From Candidatus Microbacterium stercoravium (GTDB taxonomy: Bacteria > Actinomycetota > Actinomycetes > Actinomycetales > Microbacteriaceae): DNA of 54,803 bases. Shown here piece by piece: positions 26,939-38,357 of this stretch (the first letter of the stretch is position 1; every line of letters starts with the position of its first letter). Position numbers and translations under genes: made by a program. The stretch covers positions 1-54,803 of the forward strand of contig DXAM01000092.1 in the NCBI GenBank assembly GCA_019117025.1. The letters run 5' to 3'. The notes below the pieces were generated by a model, which was not told the DNA's origin, did no database searches, and worked only from the letters and a program-made list of their open reading frames with translations.

Positions 26939-29191
26939 TCAGACCTCTGCGGCCTCATCCTTCGCGGCCTCGTCCTGCTCCTGAACGAGCTCGAGCGAGA
27001 GCTTGCCGCGGTCGTCGACCTTGGAGATCTTGACGAGCACCTTCTGACCGACCGAGACGACGTCTTCGATGTTCTCGACGCGGTTTCCGCCGTTGAGCTT
27101 GCGCAGCTCGGTGACGTGCAGCAGGCCGTCCTTACCGGGAAGCAGCGAGACGAACACACCGAACTTCGCGATGTTGACGGCCGTACCGAGGTACTGCTCG
27201 CCGACCTCGGGGTTGGTCGGATTCGCGATCGCGTTGACCTGCGCACGGGCGGCCTCGGCCGTCGGGCCGTCGGTCGCGCCGATGTAGACGGTGCCGTTGT
27301 CCTCGATCGAGATCGTGGCGCCGGTCTCGTCCTGGATCCCGTTGATCGTCTTGCCCTTCGGGCCGATCAGCTCGCCGATCTTGTCGACGGGGATCTGCAC
27401 GCTGATGACGCGCGGCGCTGTCGGCGCCATCTCGTCGGGAGCATCGATCGCCGAGTTCAGCACGTCGAGGATGCGCAGACGCGCATCCTTCGCCTGCGTG
27501 AGCGCGGCGGCCAGCACCTCGGAGGGAATGCCGTCGAGCTTCGTGTCGAGCTGCAGCGCCGTGACGAACTCGCTCGTGCCGGCGACCTTGAAGTCCATGT
27601 CTCCGAGCGCATCCTCGGCGCCCAGGATGTCGGTGAGGGCCGCGTAGCGCGTCTCCCCGTCGACGTCCTCGGACACGAGGCCCATCGCGATCCCCGCGAC
27701 GGGAGCGCGCAGCGGCACACCCGCATTCAGCAGCGACAGGGTCGAGGCGCAGACCGAACCCATCGACGTGGATCCGTTGGAGCTGAGCGCCTCGGACACC
27801 TGACGGATGGCATAGGGGAACTCCTCGCGCGTCGGCAGCACCGGCACGAGCGCGCGCTCGGCCAGGAAGCCGTGACCGATCTCGCGGCGCTTCGGGCTGC
27901 CCACACGACCCGTCTCGCCCGTGGAGTAGGGCGGGAAGTTGTAGTGGTGCATGTAGCGCTTCGACGTGGTCGGCGAGAGCGAATCGATCTGCTGTTCCAT
28001 CTTCAGCATGTTCAGCGTGGTGACGCCCATGATCTGGGTCTCGCCGCGCTGGAAGATGGCGGATCCGTGCACGCGCGGGATGACCTGCACCTCGGCGTCG
28101 AGCGGACGGATGTCGGCCAGCCCGCGGCCGTCGATGCGCGCGCCCTCGGTGAGGATGCGGCCGCGCACGACCTCCTTGGTGACCGACTTGTAGGCGGCCG
28201 ACGCCTCGCCGTTCGCGGAGGCCGGCAGCTCGCCCGCCTCGACCTTTGCGGCGACGGAAGCCTTGACGCGCTCCTTCAGAGCGTCGTCGGCGTCCTGACG
28301 CTCAACCTTGTCGGCGATCTGGTAGATGCCCTTCAGCTCCTCCAGCGCCGCGTCGCGGACGACCTGGAACACCTCGTCGCCGTACGGCGGGAAGACGGGG
28401 AACTCGAGCGGCGCGCGCGTCGACGAGGCGGCCATCTCGGCCTGCGCGGCGACGAGCTGCTTGATGAACGGCTTCGCGGCCTCGAGACCGCCGGCGACGA
28501 TCTCTTCGTTCGGCTTCACGGCGCCGCCGCGGATGAGGTTCCAGGAACCCTCCGTGGCCTCGGCCTCGACCATCATGATCGCGACCTCGCCGTTGTCGAG
28601 CACGCGGCCCGCGACCATCAGGTCGAAGACGGCCTCGTCGAGCTGTTCGGCGTTCGGGAACGCGACCCACTGGTCGTCGTGCTGGCCGAGCCCCGGGATG
28701 AGCGCGAGGCGCACACCGGCGATCGGGCCGGAGAACGGCAAGCCGGAGATCTGGGTCGACGCGCTGGCCGCGTTGATCGCGAGGGCGTCGTAGAACTCGC
28801 CCGGTGCGATCGACAGCACCGTGACGACGATCTGGACCTCGTTGCGCAGGCCGCTCGTGAACGACGGGCGCAGGGGCCGGTCGATCAGACGGCAGACGAG
28901 GATCGCGTCGGTCGAGGGGCGACCCTCGCGACGGAAGAACGAACCGGGGATCTTGCCCGCCGCGTACGAGCGCTCTTCGACGTCGACCGTCAGCGGGAAG
29001 AAGTCGAAGCCCTCGCGGGGGTGCTTGCCGGCGCTCGTCGCCGAGAGGAGCATCGTCTCCTCATCGAGGTACGCGGCGACCGCGCCCTGCGACTGCTGCG
29101 CGAGGCGACCGGTCTCGAAGCGGATCGTGCGGGTGCCGAAGCGGCCGTTGTCGAGAACGGCCTCGGCTGCGGTGATTTCTGGACCTTCCAA
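26939..29191 (-). CDS. pnp: Polyribonucleotide nucleotidyltransferase
   Basis: TTG start; [35 protein letters not shown] domain [17 protein letters not shown] and S1 domain at C-terminus. Confidence 0.97.
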
Positions 29192-29205: not shown

Positions 29206-29405
29206 TCTGTCATGCTCGTCAGTTCGAGCGTGCGTCAAGAGCAGGAGAGGAGATTCTTGCTGGCCACCAGGAGAAACCCACCGGAGGACTCCGGGAGATC
29301 ACTTCTAGGGACCAGCTCCTGCGTGCCTGCTCCATGATGATGTGAAGTTATCGGTGCCCAGCCTATCAGTGCGGCCTGATTCCGGGCCTGGATAGACTTC
29401 CGCTC

Positions 29406-30035
29406 ATGGGGATGACGCGGACGGACGAGCTCGTGCGCGCGCTCGACGCCGCAGACGCCCGTGCCGCCTCACGAGCCGCCGACGAACTCGTCGCGGCCGG
29501 ATACGCGGACGAAGCGCTGGACGCCCTCGCGGAACGCGCGGCCTCGAGCCGCTCGGCGCTCGAGCTGCTCGTCGAGACGCTCGACACGTCGGGCGTCGTG
29601 CACCGCTTCGTCGGATCCATGCTGCTCGACCGCGATGCCATCGACGACGTCGCGCAGGACACGCTGATCTCGGTCGTGCAATCGATCGCCTCGTACCGCG
29701 GCGGCGGACGGTTCACCAGCTGGGTGCATCCGATCGTGCGCCGACGCGTCGCCGATCATCTCAGGCGGCAGCGCGAGACGACGACGCTCGACGAGGAGCT
29801 GCTGCCGACCGCGCGGATGAGTTCGATGATCGCCACGCGGGCGACGGTGCAGCAGGCGCTCGCGGATCTGCCCGAGCTCTACCGGATCCCGGTCATGCTG
29901 CGCGATGTGCACGGGCTCACGTACGCGCAGGTCGCCGAGCGCACGGGCCGCACCCTCGGCACGGTCAAATCGCAGATCAGCCGCGGCCGCGCGATGGTCG
30001 CGGGCATGCTGACCGAAGACGGGGAACCCGCATGA
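29406..30035 (+). CDS. RNA polymerase sigma factor, sigma-70/ECF family
   Basis: 209 aa; sigma2 DAIDDVAQDTLISVVQSIASYRGGGRFTSWVHPIVRRRVADHLRRQRE; sigma4 ALADLPELYRIPVMLRDVHGLTYAQVAERTGRTLGTVKSQISRGRAMV; ~75-aa N-terminal extension. Confidence 0.92.
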   Translation: MGMTRTDELVRALDAADARAASRAADELVAAGYADEALDALAERAASSRSALELLVETLDTSGVVHRFVGSMLLDRDAIDDVAQDTLISVVQSIASYRGGGRFTSWVHPIVRRRVADHLRRQRETTTLDEELLPTARMSSMIATRATVQQALADLPELYRIPVMLRDVHGLTYAQVAERTGRTLGTVKSQISRGRAMVAGMLTEDGEPA

Positions 30036-31219
30036 CGGTGCGCATCGGCCCCTATCTCATCACGGAGAGCATCGGCGCGGGGTCGTTCGCCTCGGTGCAC
30101 CGCGCCGTCGACGAGCGCTTGGACGACACCGTCGCGATCAAGATCCTCGCCGAGAACCACAGCATGAATCCGGAGATCCGGGAGCGGTTCATCGCGGAGG
30201 GGCGCGCCCTGCGCCGCGTCGGCGGCCACGGGGTGCCCGCGGTCTACGACATCGGCGAATCCGATCGTCAGCAGCCATACCTCGTGCTCGAGCACGCCGA
30301 CCGCGGATCCCTCCGCGAGCGCGTCGAGACGCTGCGCGCCCGCGGTTGGATCGCGCGGCCCCACGACCTGCTCGCACTCGCACGTCCGCTCGCCGCGGGT
30401 GTCGCAGAGGTGCACCGCGCACGCCTCGTGCACCGCGATCTCAGCCCCGGCAACCTACTGCTCGCCTCGCACGCGACGCCGGCCGACGAACCTCCGCTCG
30501 GGTCGCATCTCGTGCGCGACGACGAACGTCTTCTGCTCGCCGACCTCGGCATGTGCAAGGACCTCGCCGTGAATTCGGGGCTCACCGTTGCGGGCGGCAC
30601 GAGCGGATTCCGCCCGCCCGAGCAGGACGCGCCCGGCACTGTCGACACCCGGGCCGACATCTGGGCGATCTCGGCCGTGCTGAGCTGGGTCGCAGAGGGC
30701 GCGACGCTGCCGGCCGCGTTCACGCGAGCGCTCTCGCGCGGTCGGTCGACGCGGCCCGCGCGGCGCCAGCCGGATGCTCGCACGTGGCTCCGCGAGGTGG
30801 AAGACGCGCTCGCCCCGCCCGCGCCGGCGATCGAGGCGCCGCAGCCCGCACCGCACGCCGTGCCGCCCCGACGCCGCGGCATGATCACCGCGATCACGGC
30901 CGCTGTCGCGATCGCGGCCGGGTTCGTGATCGGCATCTGGGTCGGCGGCGATCCGCCGACGCCATCGGTCGTGCCCGGGGCGTCGATCAGCATCTCGGGC
31001 CCGGACGAGATATCCGTGGGCGAACGCGCGGTGTTCACCGCGACGGTCAGCGGAGTCGAATCCTGGTCGTGGTCGCTCCCGAACCATCGGTTCATCGCCG
31101 ACGAGGCCGACGTGACCATCACCCCGACGAGCCCCGGAACCGGCGAGATCGTGCTGCGGTCGCGCACCGACGACGGCGACGACCTCGAGGCGCGACGGAC
31201 CGTGCGCGTGGTCGACTAG
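30032..31219 (+). CDS. Transmembrane Ser/Thr protein kinase with extracytoplasmic PKD/Ig-like domain
   Basis: IGAGSFASVHRA, VAIKIL, HRDLSPGNLL, LLADLG, GTSGFRPPEQ; TM GMITAITAAVAIAAGFVIGIWVG; C-terminal ISISGPDEISVGERAVFTATVSGVESWSWSL...; ATGA overlap with sigma gene. Confidence 0.9.
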   Translation: MTVRIGPYLITESIGAGSFASVHRAVDERLDDTVAIKILAENHSMNPEIRERFIAEGRALRRVGGHGVPAVYDIGESDRQQPYLVLEHADRGSLRERVETLRARGWIARPHDLLALARPLAAGVAEVHRARLVHRDLSPGNLLLASHATPADEPPLGSHLVRDDERLLLADLGMCKDLAVNSGLTVAGGTSGFRPPEQDAPGTVDTRADIWAISAVLSWVAEGATLPAAFTRALSRGRSTRPARRQPDARTWLREVEDALAPPAPAIEAPQPAPHAVPPRRRGMITAITAAVAIAAGFVIGIWVGGDPPTPSVVPGASISISGPDEISVGERAVFTATVSGVESWSWSLPNHRFIADEADVTITPTSPGTGEIVLRSRTDDGDDLEARRTVRVVD

Positions 31220-31239
31220 AAGATTCTCTCGGACGCGTT

Positions 31240-31267
31240 GCAACCAATCGGGCGCGGGGCGCGACAT
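31240..31267 (+). promoter_or_regulatory. ECF-type promoter candidate GCAACC-N16-CGACAT
   Basis: -35-like GCAACC and -10-like CGACAT, 16-nt spacer, 36 bp before lipoprotein ATG. Confidence 0.4.
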
Positions 31268-31302
31268 ACAGACGAACCGTCCATGATTCACAGGGAGAGA
31301 CC

Positions 31303-32466
31303 ATGACGATCACGACCACGCGCACACCCTTCACTCGTTGCGCGATCGGCCTCGCCGCACTCTCGGTGCTGGCGCTCACCGGATGCGGAACGAACGCCGA
31401 TCCCGCCGGATTCGAGAGCGGTACCGGCACCGTGGAAGAGAGCGCGCCGACGCCCGAGACCACGGCGGAGGCTGCCGATGACGTCGAGCGCGTCGAGCCC
31501 GGCTTCGTCTACGACGACATCTCGAAGGACGTCACCGCGACGGAGACGATCCGGCCGGAGAACGCCGAGATCATCACGCCCAGCGGCACGCTCACCATCA
31601 ACTCCGTGCAGGAGGTCGCCGCCGTGGCACCCACGGAGATCGGCCTCGATACCGTCGACGGTGACGACGGCGATCCGCGCGATTACGGCGCGGCAGAGGG
31701 TGAGTCATTGCGCATCGTCGACGTGTCGTACATGCCGGACGAGGAGTTCCCCGCGGACGACGCCCCCACCACAGAACTTTCCATCGAGGTCGGCGGGGCG
31801 CAGGAGCACCTGTCGACGCTGGACGACCAACAGGACCATCGGATCCTCGTCTCCGCGGCGCAGGACGGCTCGGCGCAGCTCATCGTCTCGTCCGAGGGAC
31901 ACGACCAGGCGGTCGACGTGCTCACGGGCGAGCGCGCCGACGATGAGGTCGCGGCGGCGTACTACCTGCCGACCACGCGTCAGGAGCCCCACCACACCTT
32001 CCCGATCGACGACGGCGCCCTGCCGACGAAGTCGGGCACCACGCCCGAAGAGGACGTGACGACCACTTACTCGTTCCAGATCGACGCCGCGACGCTGACG
32101 GCATGGACCGCGAGCGACGGCTGGGCCGACCCCGGCCAGGCGTGGCTCGTCGTCGATTGGACGTACACGGTCACGGCCGCGCACCCGGTGATCTCGGGGC
32201 GCATCGACCGCTTCGACGCCGCACTCGAGGTCACGGCAGGCGATGAGGTCGTGGAAGACACGGTGCACGACGAAGACAAGGGCGGCGATGTCACGGGCAC
32301 GAAATCGACGTCGGTCGCCGTCCCGATCGAGACGACCGATGTCGCCCTCAGCGTCTCGGGCGGTGCCGAGATCGACATGTACTCGGGCTCCGGCCTCGAG
32401 ATGGCGGGATCAACGGCCGTCGAGTTCTCGTCCGACCCCCTGGAGATCTCCTTCCCGCGCGAGTGA
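31303..32466 (+). CDS. Hypothetical secreted lipoprotein
   Basis: 387 aa; lipobox ALSVLALTGCGTN; acidic Thr/Asp-rich mature protein. Confidence 0.8.
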   Translation: MTITTTRTPFTRCAIGLAALSVLALTGCGTNADPAGFESGTGTVEESAPTPETTAEAADDVERVEPGFVYDDISKDVTATETIRPENAEIITPSGTLTINSVQEVAAVAPTEIGLDTVDGDDGDPRDYGAAEGESLRIVDVSYMPDEEFPADDAPTTELSIEVGGAQEHLSTLDDQQDHRILVSAAQDGSAQLIVSSEGHDQAVDVLTGERADDEVAAAYYLPTTRQEPHHTFPIDDGALPTKSGTTPEEDVTTTYSFQIDAATLTAWTASDGWADPGQAWLVVDWTYTVTAAHPVISGRIDRFDAALEVTAGDEVVEDTVHDEDKGGDVTGTKSTSVAVPIETTDVALSVSGGAEIDMYSGSGLEMAGSTAVEFSSDPLEISFPRE

Positions 32467-32499
32467 CGAAGAACGGGGCGCGCGCTCGGGTCGGGTACC

Positions 32500-33663
32500 G
32501 TGAATCAGGTGTCTGAAGCCGGATCCTTCCTTCTCCTGTTCGCGACCGGCGCGATCCCCGCCGTCGTCGGCCTCGTGATCGTCGCGATCGCCCGTCCGAT
32601 CGCGCGCCGCCTGCCGACGTCTCCCGCCGCCGAATTCGTGCCGCCACCCGGCGACCTCATCATGCACGGCCTGGCCGTGCGGTCCGAGCGGCGGCTCGTG
32701 TCGGCGGCGATCACGCGGCTCGCGCTCAGCGGACGGGTCCGCGTGCTCGCCCCGCGCGGCGAGCACGGCCCCGTCGCGATCGAGGCGCGCCCGGGCACGG
32801 GCCTCGGTCCTGACGACCATTTCTTCCTGCAGACGCTGCGACCCCAGCGCATGCGCCCCCGGCAGCAGCGGCGGTATCTGGCCGCCTTGCACGAGGTCGG
32901 CATCCGCGTCGAGCGGTACGAGGACGCGCCCGATGTGTCGTTCCTCCGCGGTCCCGGGGCTTTCCGCCGCATTCAGCGCCGGCAACTGTCGGCCTACATC
33001 GACCGCGCACGGTCCCGCGCGAAGTCGTCGGGAATCGCCCGGCGGACATCGGGCAGCGTGCATCTGTATCTGCTGTCGCTGCTGTTCCTCGCCTCGGCGG
33101 TCGCGGCTCTCCTGATGGCGATCGGGTCGATGGTGAACGGGGTGACCTGGGGCGTGATCGGCGCACCGCTCGGCGTCGCGGCGATGTTCTGGGTGCTGAC
33201 CCTGTCTCCGCCGCCGATCATGAGGTTCACTCCCGAGGGCCAGCAGATGCGCCAGCGCCTCTCCGGCCTGCGCGACTACATGAGGCTCGCCGAGCAGGAC
33301 CGGATGCGCATTCTGCAGTCCCCGCAGGGCGCGCTGCGCACTCCGGCGGGCGAGCTCACGCCGGGCGGCCGAGCGCTCGGCCTGCGCCCGGAGCCCACCG
33401 CGGGCGACGCCGTCGCGCAGTCGGACCTGGATCGCTTCGTGCTCGTCGAGCGCCTGCTGCCGTACGCGATCCTGTTCCGCCAGGAGCGCGAGTGGCAGCG
33501 CGAGTTCGAGCATCTCGGCGGCGCCGTCGACTTCTCACAGAACATGCGCGTGCTCGGCACCACGCTCGAAGGCATCATGGCGGTGCTGGAGGTGCTCGCC
33601 GCGGTCGGTCAGGTGCTGCGCGGCATCGGCGCGATCTTCTCGTTCGTCGGGCGCGTCGGCTGA
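32500..33663 (+). CDS. Hypothetical membrane protein, DUF2207-like
   Basis: 387 aa; N-terminal TM, central LYLLSLLFLASAVAALLMAIGSMVNGVTWGVIGAPLGVAAMFWVLTL TMs, EGQQMRQRLSGLRDYMRLAEQDRMR and ERLLPYAILFRQEREWQREFE resembling DUF2207 C-terminus. Confidence 0.6.
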   Translation: MNQVSEAGSFLLLFATGAIPAVVGLVIVAIARPIARRLPTSPAAEFVPPPGDLIMHGLAVRSERRLVSAAITRLALSGRVRVLAPRGEHGPVAIEARPGTGLGPDDHFFLQTLRPQRMRPRQQRRYLAALHEVGIRVERYEDAPDVSFLRGPGAFRRIQRRQLSAYIDRARSRAKSSGIARRTSGSVHLYLLSLLFLASAVAALLMAIGSMVNGVTWGVIGAPLGVAAMFWVLTLSPPPIMRFTPEGQQMRQRLSGLRDYMRLAEQDRMRILQSPQGALRTPAGELTPGGRALGLRPEPTAGDAVAQSDLDRFVLVERLLPYAILFRQEREWQREFEHLGGAVDFSQNMRVLGTTLEGIMAVLEVLAAVGQVLRGIGAIFSFVGRVG

Positions 33664-33691: not shown

Positions 33692-35659
33692 TCAGGCCTC
33701 CGCCGGCTCGCCGTCTCGGCGGTGTCGCGGGATCAGCACGTAATCGCCGTGCTTCGCCACGATGCCGTCGCCCGCCGTGCGGCCGTGCAGGCGGCGCCAG
33801 ATCCAGGGGATCGCGTGCGTCGTGACCCATGGGCCGCCCGCGGCGTCATCGTCGCTGTGGAACGCGTCGTCGAGGTCGCCGAGATGGGCCGCGTCGGGCA
33901 CGCCGAGCACTTCCGCCGCGCGATACGACAGCAGGCGGTGGCCGCGACTGGCCAGATGCACCCTGTCGGCGGCGAACATCTCCAGCTCGCCGAGCTCCGG
34001 AAGCGCCTCGGCATCGACGAGGTATGACTCGGTGTTGCGGGCGATGCGGCGCATCTCGTGCGCGAAGCGCGCGAACCTGCGCGCGAAGGGCCTCGCGGCC
34101 CGGCGCCTCGGTAGGAACGGCGTCACGAGCAGCACGTCTGACCCGGCGCCGCGAAGGGCGCGCACGTTCGCCTCCAGCTCTCGCGCCAGACGCACCGGTT
34201 CCGCCCCATGGCTGATGAGGTCGTTGGATCCCATGAAGATCGCCGTCAGGTCGGGCGTCAGCTCGAGCGCATCCGGAACCTGCACGTGCGTGAGGTCGCG
34301 CACGCGGCGGCTGCGCACCGCGAGGTTCGCGTAGCGGAAGTCCGCGTCGGAGCTCTCGGCGAGCATGGTCGCGAGCCGGTCGGCCCATCCGCGGTAGTGA
34401 CCGTCGCGCATGCGCGAGGTGTCGCACAATCCCTCGGTCAGCGAGTCGCCGAGCGCGACGAAGCGCCGCCACTGCGGACGCACCCTCGGACGCAGTGGGG
34501 CGACGGGGCGAGTCAGCGAACGCACCACGAGGCGGTCGTCGAACCGGCGCAGCCGCTGCGACTCGGCGTAGTGCGACACGAGCTGTTCGGTGAGCGCGCG
34601 CCAGGTGCGGGGCGCGACGCTCTCGCGCGCGGCACGGCCGAACGAGGCGCGCTTCGCGTCGTCTCCCAGCAGGTCGACGACGCGCGAGCGCATGTCGTCG
34701 AGGTCGCCCGGCGTGTAGAGCCAGCCGTCGATCGAGCTGCGTACGAGGTCGATGGGGCCGCCGGATCCGGTCGCCACGACGGGCACGCCGCTCGCGAGCG
34801 CCTCCTGCACGGTTTGGCAGAACGTCTCCGCCTCTCCGGGGTGCACGAAGACGTCGAAGCTCGCCACCGCGCGACCGAGGTCATCGCCGCCGAGGAAACC
34901 GGTGAACACGGCGCCCGGCAGCTCTCTCGCGAGCCGCTCGCGCTCGGGTCCGTCGCCGACGATCACGAGGCGTGCGCCCGGGATATCGTTCAGCGCCCGC
35001 AGGTCCTCGACCTGCTTCTCGGGGGCGAGGCGCCCCACGTACCCGATGATCCGCTCCCCCGGCGCGACCTCGTTCCGCCAGGCATCCGAGCGGCGCTCCG
35101 GAGCGAAGCGCTCGGCGTCAACGCCCCGGCCCCAGCGCCAGATGCGATCGGTTCCCAGGTGCGCGAGCTGGTCCTCCGCCGCGCTCGATGGCACGAGCGA
35201 CATCGTCGCGCGGCGGTGCAGCCGGGCGACGTGCGCTTCGGCGAGCGCAGCGATCCCGGGAACGCCGTACTTCGCCGTATACGCGATGACATCGGTCTGG
35301 TAGACCGCGACGCTCGGCAGGGCGAGGGCATCGGCCGCCACCACAGCCTGCCAGCCGAGCACCGCCGGGGACGCGAGATGCACGACGTCGGGTGCGAAGG
35401 CCGTGAGGATCCGCTTGAGCTGCGCGACGGGCGCGACCGCGACGCGCACATCGGGGTACGACGGCAAGGCGACCGAGGAGAGCAGCATCGTCTCGGGGAG
35501 GTCGATGCCGATCACGTCGGCCGGCCGCCCCGGTGCCTTGGGGGCGATGACGAGCACCTGATGACCCAGCGCCCGCAGGTGCGACGACACCTGCAGCACG
35601 GATCCGGTGACCCCGTTCATGTGCGGGAGGAAGCTCTCTGTCACGATCGCGACGCGCAT
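33692..35659 (-). CDS. Fused GT4 glycosyltransferase - SGNH/GDSL hydrolase
   Basis: 655 aa single ORF: GT4 MRVAIVTESFLPHMNGVTGSVLQVSSHLRALGHQVLVIAP...GYVGRLAPEKQVEDLRAL...FDVFVHPGEAETFCQTVQEALASGVPVVATGSGGP, then SGNH FVALGDSLTEG, GSNDL, DRVHLASRGH. Confidence 0.9.
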   Translation of the reverse strand: MRVAIVTESFLPHMNGVTGSVLQVSSHLRALGHQVLVIAPKAPGRPADVIGIDLPETMLLSSVALPSYPDVRVAVAPVAQLKRILTAFAPDVVHLASPAVLGWQAVVAADALALPSVAVYQTDVIAYTAKYGVPGIAALAEAHVARLHRRATMSLVPSSAAEDQLAHLGTDRIWRWGRGVDAERFAPERRSDAWRNEVAPGERIIGYVGRLAPEKQVEDLRALNDIPGARLVIVGDGPERERLARELPGAVFTGFLGGDDLGRAVASFDVFVHPGEAETFCQTVQEALASGVPVVATGSGGPIDLVRSSIDGWLYTPGDLDDMRSRVVDLLGDDAKRASFGRAARESVAPRTWRALTEQLVSHYAESQRLRRFDDRLVVRSLTRPVAPLRPRVRPQWRRFVALGDSLTEGLCDTSRMRDGHYRGWADRLATMLAESSDADFRYANLAVRSRRVRDLTHVQVPDALELTPDLTAIFMGSNDLISHGAEPVRLARELEANVRALRGAGSDVLLVTPFLPRRRAARPFARRFARFAHEMRRIARNTESYLVDAEALPELGELEMFAADRVHLASRGHRLLSYRAAEVLGVPDAAHLGDLDDAFHSDDDAAGGPWVTTHAIPWIWRRLHGRTAGDGIVAKHGDYVLIPRHRRDGEPAEA

Positions 35660-38087: not shown

Positions 38088-38357
38088 TTAGCGGCGCAGC
38101 CCCAGACGGGCGATCAGCGCACGGTAGCGTGCGATGTCGACGCGCTGGAGGTAGCCGAGCAGACGGCGGCGCTGACCGACGAGCAGGAACAGGCCACGAC
38201 GCGAGTGGTGGTCGTGCTTGTGCTCCTTCAGGTGCTCAGTCAGGTCGAGGATGCGACGCGACAGCATCGCAACCTGCACCTCGGGGGATCCGGTGTCACC
38301 GGGGTGCGTCGCGTACTCTTCGATGATCGACTTCTTGACGGATGCTTCAAGTGCCAT
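38088..38357 (-). CDS. rpsO: 30S ribosomal protein S15
   Basis: [70 protein letters not shown]. Confidence 0.98.

Follow-up and report, generated by a model that had tools for sequence, protein, structure and literature searches.

A kinase-linked ECF sigma factor with a conserved promoter and a predicted lipoprotein output in Candidatus Microbacterium stercoravium

In contig DXAM01000092.1 of Candidatus Microbacterium stercoravium, a gene for an extracytoplasmic function (ECF) sigma factor overlaps the gene for a membrane Ser/Thr kinase, and directly behind the pair stands a conserved ECF-type promoter, followed by a lipoprotein gene. We favour, with moderate confidence, a reading in which an envelope-sensing kinase phosphorylates the linker of the sigma factor, which in turn drives one lipoprotein operon. 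The proposal rests on sequence comparison, namely on the gene pair, the promoter and its near-single use, a motif in the linker and the lipoprotein output; phosphorylation, its activating direction, its site, the signal and the recognition of TGCAAC-N17-CGAC by the sigma factor are what we infer from it. The window, meaning the whole stretch of DNA analysed, is one entire contig (54.8 kb) from a draft genome of 2.43 Mb, and the central features are as follows.

29406..30035, plus strand: ECF sigma factor gene of a kinase-linked clade (209 aa)
30032..31219, plus strand: membrane Ser/Thr kinase gene (395 aa), its start overlapping the sigma stop (ATGA)
31239..31265, plus strand: ECF-type promoter TGCAAC-N17-CGAC, with -35 at 31239-31244 and -10 at 31262-31265, conserved across loci
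31303..32466, plus strand: lipoprotein gene (387 aa, lipobox LTGC), the predicted main target of the sigma factor

A conserved promoter behind the sigma–kinase pair

A preliminary description of this DNA had placed an ATGA overlap between the sigma and kinase genes and four genes on the plus strand, both of which agree with the open reading frame coordinates. It had also reported that an anti-sigma gene was missing, and indeed none adjoins the sigma–kinase pair in the window. To these features we add the promoter element at 31239-31265, which was absent from that description.

We compared 20 loci including the window, two of which (L065 and L066) are near-identical, leaving 19 non-duplicate loci. 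The kinase gene lies directly 3' of the sigma gene and on the same strand in all 20, and since the two are immediate neighbours in the same orientation in all close homologs, their association is far above chance. The conserved unit comprises the sigma gene, the kinase gene, the promoter and the lipoprotein gene, and is kept across 19/19 other close loci. At L078 the sigma and kinase genes are interrupted and at L035 the reading frame is broken, which could reflect decay or sequencing error. Searches of the genus, the order and the class and phylum showed that a kinase-linked ECF sigma factor with no anti-sigma gene, as proposed in the preliminary description, is conserved well beyond close strains.

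The element TGCAAC-N17-CGAC sits in the short gap that follows the kinase gene's stop codon and has the -35/-10 layout of ECF promoters. It is intact in 18 of the 19 non-duplicate loci and in L174, a locus from a different class; the one variant, TGAAAC, occurs at L076. When the 20 gaps (the 19 non-duplicate loci and L174) were aligned, mean pairwise identity was 0.99 for the ten motif bases, 0.38 for the spacer and 0.33 for the flanks. Both strands of 545 kb of oriented loci contained 20 exact sites, 18 of them at the module position and the remaining two (in genomes G466 and G397) starting lipoprotein genes upstream of the sigma gene. Across 17 genomes the extended motif TGCAAC-N17-CGAC-NN-A-Y gave 25 sites, against 4 for a reversed control, with the module site present in 16 of the 17. 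It has one occurrence in the window against 0.03 expected, and the promoter is usually found once per genome. No further good site was found in the organism's own genome, where relaxed matches equalled the reversed control; a large regulon in this genome was rejected on that ground. Given this near-single use of a conserved promoter, the lipoprotein gene next door is most likely the one main target of the sigma factor.

Additional copies of the element were seen in two genomes. At L217 (G466), one stands upstream of the sigma gene before a different, 217-aa lipoprotein; another G466 site, at C1:879481, was set aside as likely chance, there being no convincing lipoprotein gene behind it. In G397 (L071/L218), an OmpA-like gene and a further lipoprotein gene, the latter preceded by a TGCAAC-N17-CGAC of its own, lie upstream of the sigma gene, and the sigma–kinase pair appears to be flanked by two target operons.

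The sigma factor and its linker

29637..29660, plus strand: sigma region 2.2, AIDDVAQD, with acidic residues retained by alignment, unlike ECF43/EcfP (STTA)
29814..29840, plus strand: sigma2–sigma4 linker motif RMSSMIATR, residues 137-145, with candidate phosphosites Ser139/Ser140 (29820-29825)

The protein consists of sigma2 and sigma4 domains only, which makes it an ECF (group 4 sigma-70) factor. Its Pfam matches, to Sigma70_r2 (6e-14) and Sigma70_r4_2 (3e-16), are above cut-off, and for TIGR02937 it scores 73.9 bits against 42.9. A conserved adjoining Ser/Thr kinase gene and the lack of an anti-sigma gene mark it as kinase-linked. Control had been proposed to act through an N-terminal extension of about 75 aa or through the linker. 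The extension measures about 45-50 aa and is shorter still in L073, L075 and L077; we do not favour it as the control site, whereas the linker half of the proposal stands, the linker being conserved.

Group ECF43 comprises EcfP/PknT of Vibrio parahaemolyticus and EcfK/PknS of Xanthomonas citri. In EcfP, the STTA motif of region 2.2 is phosphorylated (PMC8999054). Whereas ECF43 sigma factors lack the acidic DAED residues of this region, the window sigma factor retains its acids, and the acidic pair is kept across its family (AxDDVxQ[DE]); a switch of the EcfP/ECF43 kind therefore does not fit. Residue T86, directly after the region 2.2 acidic residue, varies to S/A/V, which likewise disfavours a phospho-switch at this place. 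In EcfK, the phosphosites are T104, T106, S108 and S110 of the linker, with T106 foremost, and they replace acidic residues of other sigma factors; six of the seven other X. citri ECFs carry acidic residues at the equivalent place (PMC13147305).

Residues R137, S139, S140, A143 and R145 are invariant in 18 family members, within a normally variable linker. Searching the whole class and phylum brought in further relatives whose gene arrangement differs, some having a divergently transcribed kinase gene, and a sigma tree was computed with the linker columns left out. On this tree the kinase-linked ECFs form one group (53 rows, support 92), four of the 53 having no detected kinase. The kinases of a 42-row subclade (support 90) are mostly codirectional-downstream or divergent, and a kinase gene adjoins in 41 of its rows (the kinase of L117 is upstream, and L118 has none in its short flank). 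The motif R-x-[ST]-S-[MVLI]-[IVLA]-A is present in 41/42 rows, the exception being L055 with RRVSVLAG. Column 139 is Ser in all 42; among 60 ECFs with no kinase detected, 13% have Ser/Thr there. It is the sole Ser/Thr column invariant in the clade yet uncommon elsewhere. Positions 137-143 contain no Asp/Glu in the 42-row clade, against up to 48% in the 60 other ECFs. Related ECFs at L149-L153, L156 and L158-L160 have a same-strand upstream kinase and lack the linker serine motif, possibly reflecting a different control mechanism.

The kinase

30878..30946, plus strand: single transmembrane segment, about residues 283-305, a hydrophobic stretch read from the sequence
30974..31216, plus strand: extracytoplasmic all-beta (Ig/PKD-like) domain

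The kinase matches Pkinase in Pfam (4.5e-24), and its nearest PDB entries are PknB/PknA. Its catalytic set is complete, with K37, HRD D136, N141 and D171 invariant in 12 aligned homologs, and DLG replaces DFG. The catalytic Lys, HRD Asp, Asn and D-x-G Asp, together with one transmembrane segment and an outer domain, identify it as a Hanks-type receptor kinase. It is not a PASTA kinase of the PknB kind: the Pfam scan gave no PASTA family, the outer part is a single beta-sandwich, and NF033483 matched the catalytic part only, at 102.6 bits for a cut-off of 450. AlphaFold2 models the extracytoplasmic domain as eight strands with a predicted local distance difference test score (pLDDT) of 96. Homologs share 40-75% identity with the window version of this domain, and weak profile matches to Ig-like domains make the Ig/PKD-like label plausible. 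The invariant catalytic residues and the modelled fold support an intact kinase with an extracytoplasmic beta-sandwich domain, in line with the preliminary description.

The lipoprotein and OmpA-domain payloads

In 17 of the 19 non-duplicate loci the lipoprotein gene starts 35-92 nt past the promoter motif; as for the remaining two, L075 runs off its contig and L076 has an early TAG. The frame with this TAG follows the sole degenerate promoter, and joint decay of the two is possible.

In the Microbacterium type, the product is one long protein of 382-444 aa with two tandem beta-rich domains (AlphaFold2 mean pLDDT 75), and tblastn identified homologs at L034, L064, L073, L077, L081 and L082. 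It matched no Pfam family, a PDB sequence search gave no homologs, and Foldseek with the model returned weak beta-sandwich matches of low template modelling (TM) score only. Most other loci encode a lipoprotein of ~210-250 aa and then an OmpA-domain protein (PF00691 in both genes tested), often with a 4-base overlap between the genes; at L067 the two proteins are fused. The two lipoprotein families align over their first 34 residues only, which span the signal peptide, the lipobox and A-x-F (hhalign probability 94, E 1.9e-7), the signature of this leader being Cys followed by A-x-F. By these alignments, a constant promoter and leader precede payloads that differ. The preliminary description had cast the lipoprotein as a possible envelope sensor; with a conserved ECF-type promoter of its own, it fits better as sigma-factor output than as a sensor.

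Expression of the sigma gene

29393..29398, plus strand: putative -10 hexamer TAGACT, assigned to a leaderless housekeeping promoter for the sigma–kinase transcript

Of the 18 loci with an assigned start, 13 have a TANNNT hexamer whose first base lies 12-13 nt ahead of the sigma start codon, the spacing expected for a leaderless housekeeping promoter. It appears that the sigma gene is transcribed from such a promoter without a leader, and no ECF-type promoter was found in front of it in the window. Together these two features favour a constitutive supply of the sigma factor, whose activation would then be post-translational.

Distribution and neighbourhood

32500..33663, plus strand: DUF2207_C-like membrane protein gene (GTG start, 387 aa), a neighbour outside the conserved module
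26939-29191, minus strand: pnp, adjoining the sigma gene on its upstream side
38088-38357, minus strand: rpsO, 4.4 kb downstream and separated by further genes

Sigma homologs of more than 50% identity occur in 4 of 298 genomes of the genus (the organism's own included) and in about 14 of 395 genomes of the order; named close relatives are those of Microbacterium gubbeenense (84%) and Brachybacterium sp. Z12 (61%). Genomes G190 (L065/L075) and G530 (L066/L077) each carry two module copies with differing payload types. One of the two copies groups with the Microbacterium type, which suggests between-genus transfer. The rarity of the module, its changing neighbours and the paired copies in G190 and G530 point to a history of horizontal transfer and loss.

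The preliminary description envisaged a four-gene module inserted between pnp and rpsO. While pnp does adjoin the module, rpsO is separated from it by intervening genes, and the wider unit did not survive comparison: sigma, kinase and lipoprotein genes stay linked, but among module loci the DUF2207 gene and the adjoining pnp are limited to the window and L034 of M. gubbeenense, and for this reason we place the DUF2207 gene outside the module. A minus-strand gene, judged GNAT-like by eye, intervenes at L034. The DUF2207-like protein matches PF20990 DUF2207_C at 3e-9 (Pfam), and an ortholog (58%) is present in G625, a genome without a sigma match. Between the DUF2207 gene and rpsO lie genes for a glycosyltransferase/GDSL-hydrolase protein, a short reductase-like open reading frame and a luciferase-like monooxygenase, named from Pfam matches where present and otherwise read from the sequence. 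The first of these (33692-35653, minus strand) is a 653-aa fusion of a GT4-type glycosyltransferase and a GDSL hydrolase domain, ~87% identical to its M. gubbeenense L034 counterpart over the part covered there.

Discussion

The module may constitute a self-contained envelope signalling circuit. Sigma factor and kinase would be co-produced at a basal level from the leaderless housekeeping promoter, and an envelope cue would activate the kinase via its extracytoplasmic beta-sandwich sensor. The kinase would then phosphorylate the sigma factor, most likely at one or both of the invariant linker serines S139/S140, the phosphate supplying negative charge in a stretch that is often acidic (Asp/Glu) in other ECF sigma factors. 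Active sigma factor would recruit RNA polymerase to TGCAAC-N17-CGAC, just 3' of the kinase gene, and switch on one lipoprotein gene or, in most other genera, a lipoprotein together with an OmpA-domain, peptidoglycan-binding-type protein.

Several observations weigh against this circuit. With its acidic region 2.2, the sigma factor might bind core polymerase without phosphorylation. The correlation between linker serine and kinase linkage is suggestive rather than proof, since the motif was inherited within one clade and the correlation amounts to about one evolutionary event; gaps in the linker alignment restrict comparison at the level of single residues. Within the same clade, a more distant group with the kinase upstream lacks the linker motif, and the distant sigma–kinase pairs L175-L177 have no such promoter after the kinase gene.

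The window system is a kinase-linked ECF of a known general kind, perhaps belonging to ECF283. We put at about even the chance that the sigma factor is simply a member of this group, already described as kinase-linked, to which only sequence detail would be added here. ECF283, whose type is from Nocardioides sp. Root190, is likewise actinobacterial and predicted to be controlled by phosphorylation, and is listed as phosphorylation-regulated (PMC8999054). Against such an equation, the near-invariant promoter, the near-single lipoprotein/OmpA output and the linker serine motif were not found described in the literature searched, which excluded the papers defining the ECF classification, that of ECF283 among them.

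Somewhat unlikely, in our view, is a double role in which the lipoprotein, with its OmpA partner where present, is induced by the sigma factor and also feeds back on the outer domain of the kinase as a sensor arm. The constant linkage of the lipoprotein gene to the sigma–kinase pair, the leader shared by two otherwise dissimilar lipoprotein families and the co-conserved extracytoplasmic kinase domain would all fit such a role; however, the mature lipoprotein domain varies by lineage while the kinase domain stays conserved. We are more doubtful that the same circuit runs with the kinase acting negatively or through another residue (for instance by region 2 or 4 phosphorylation or by membrane sequestration), the linker serines being structural. 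The intact acidic residues of region 2.2 mean that the sigma factor could be active unless inhibited, and the linker of M. tuberculosis SigH is phosphorylated by PknB with no known activating effect (PMC13147305), but the singular conservation of Ser139 speaks for the linker, and in the characterised kinase-linked ECF43 sigma factors phosphorylation activates. A chance neighbourhood with no functional linkage, to which the rarity of the module in the genus might lend colour, is refuted for sigma, kinase, promoter and lipoprotein by an order and promoter conserved across families and in another class amid differing flanking genes, and is extremely improbable.

Like ECF43, the favoured circuit has an ECF sigma gene beside a membrane Hanks-type kinase gene and no anti-sigma gene, and, as in EcfK, the sigma2–sigma4 linker is the region of interest, although the EcfK phosphosites are functionally important and those of the window sigma factor are candidates only. 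The outputs of ECF43 are type VI secretion system or polymyxin resistance genes, whereas here one adjoining lipoprotein gene is predicted. In Streptomyces coelicolor, sigma-E is under two-component control and has a large regulon, in contrast to the near-single local target and Ser/Thr kinase suggested for the window system. Both are actinobacterial ECFs, sigma-E with envelope-protein targets (PMC6767563) and the window sigma factor with a predicted one.

More tentatively, and at somewhat below even probability, the family may represent an actinobacterial class of kinase-switched sigma factors, with a phospho-switch in the linker (R-x-[ST]-S) instead of region 2.2, borne on a horizontally spread cassette of near-single output. 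Such a cassette would combine the sigma factor, the kinase, its own promoter and an exchangeable lipoprotein/OmpA payload behind the conserved promoter and leader. Detailed demonstration of activating, direct sigma phosphorylation is limited to ECF43 members. According to a review, the acidic residues of region 2.2 are retained in other kinase-linked groups, which may thus work differently (PMC8999054). On one short DNA stretch, this sigma family offers S139/S140 as a specific candidate site open to mutation, a predicted promoter and a single gene as readout, which together make the kinase-linked ECF question directly testable. If the proposed circuit is true, it would be a compact kinase-gated expression switch.

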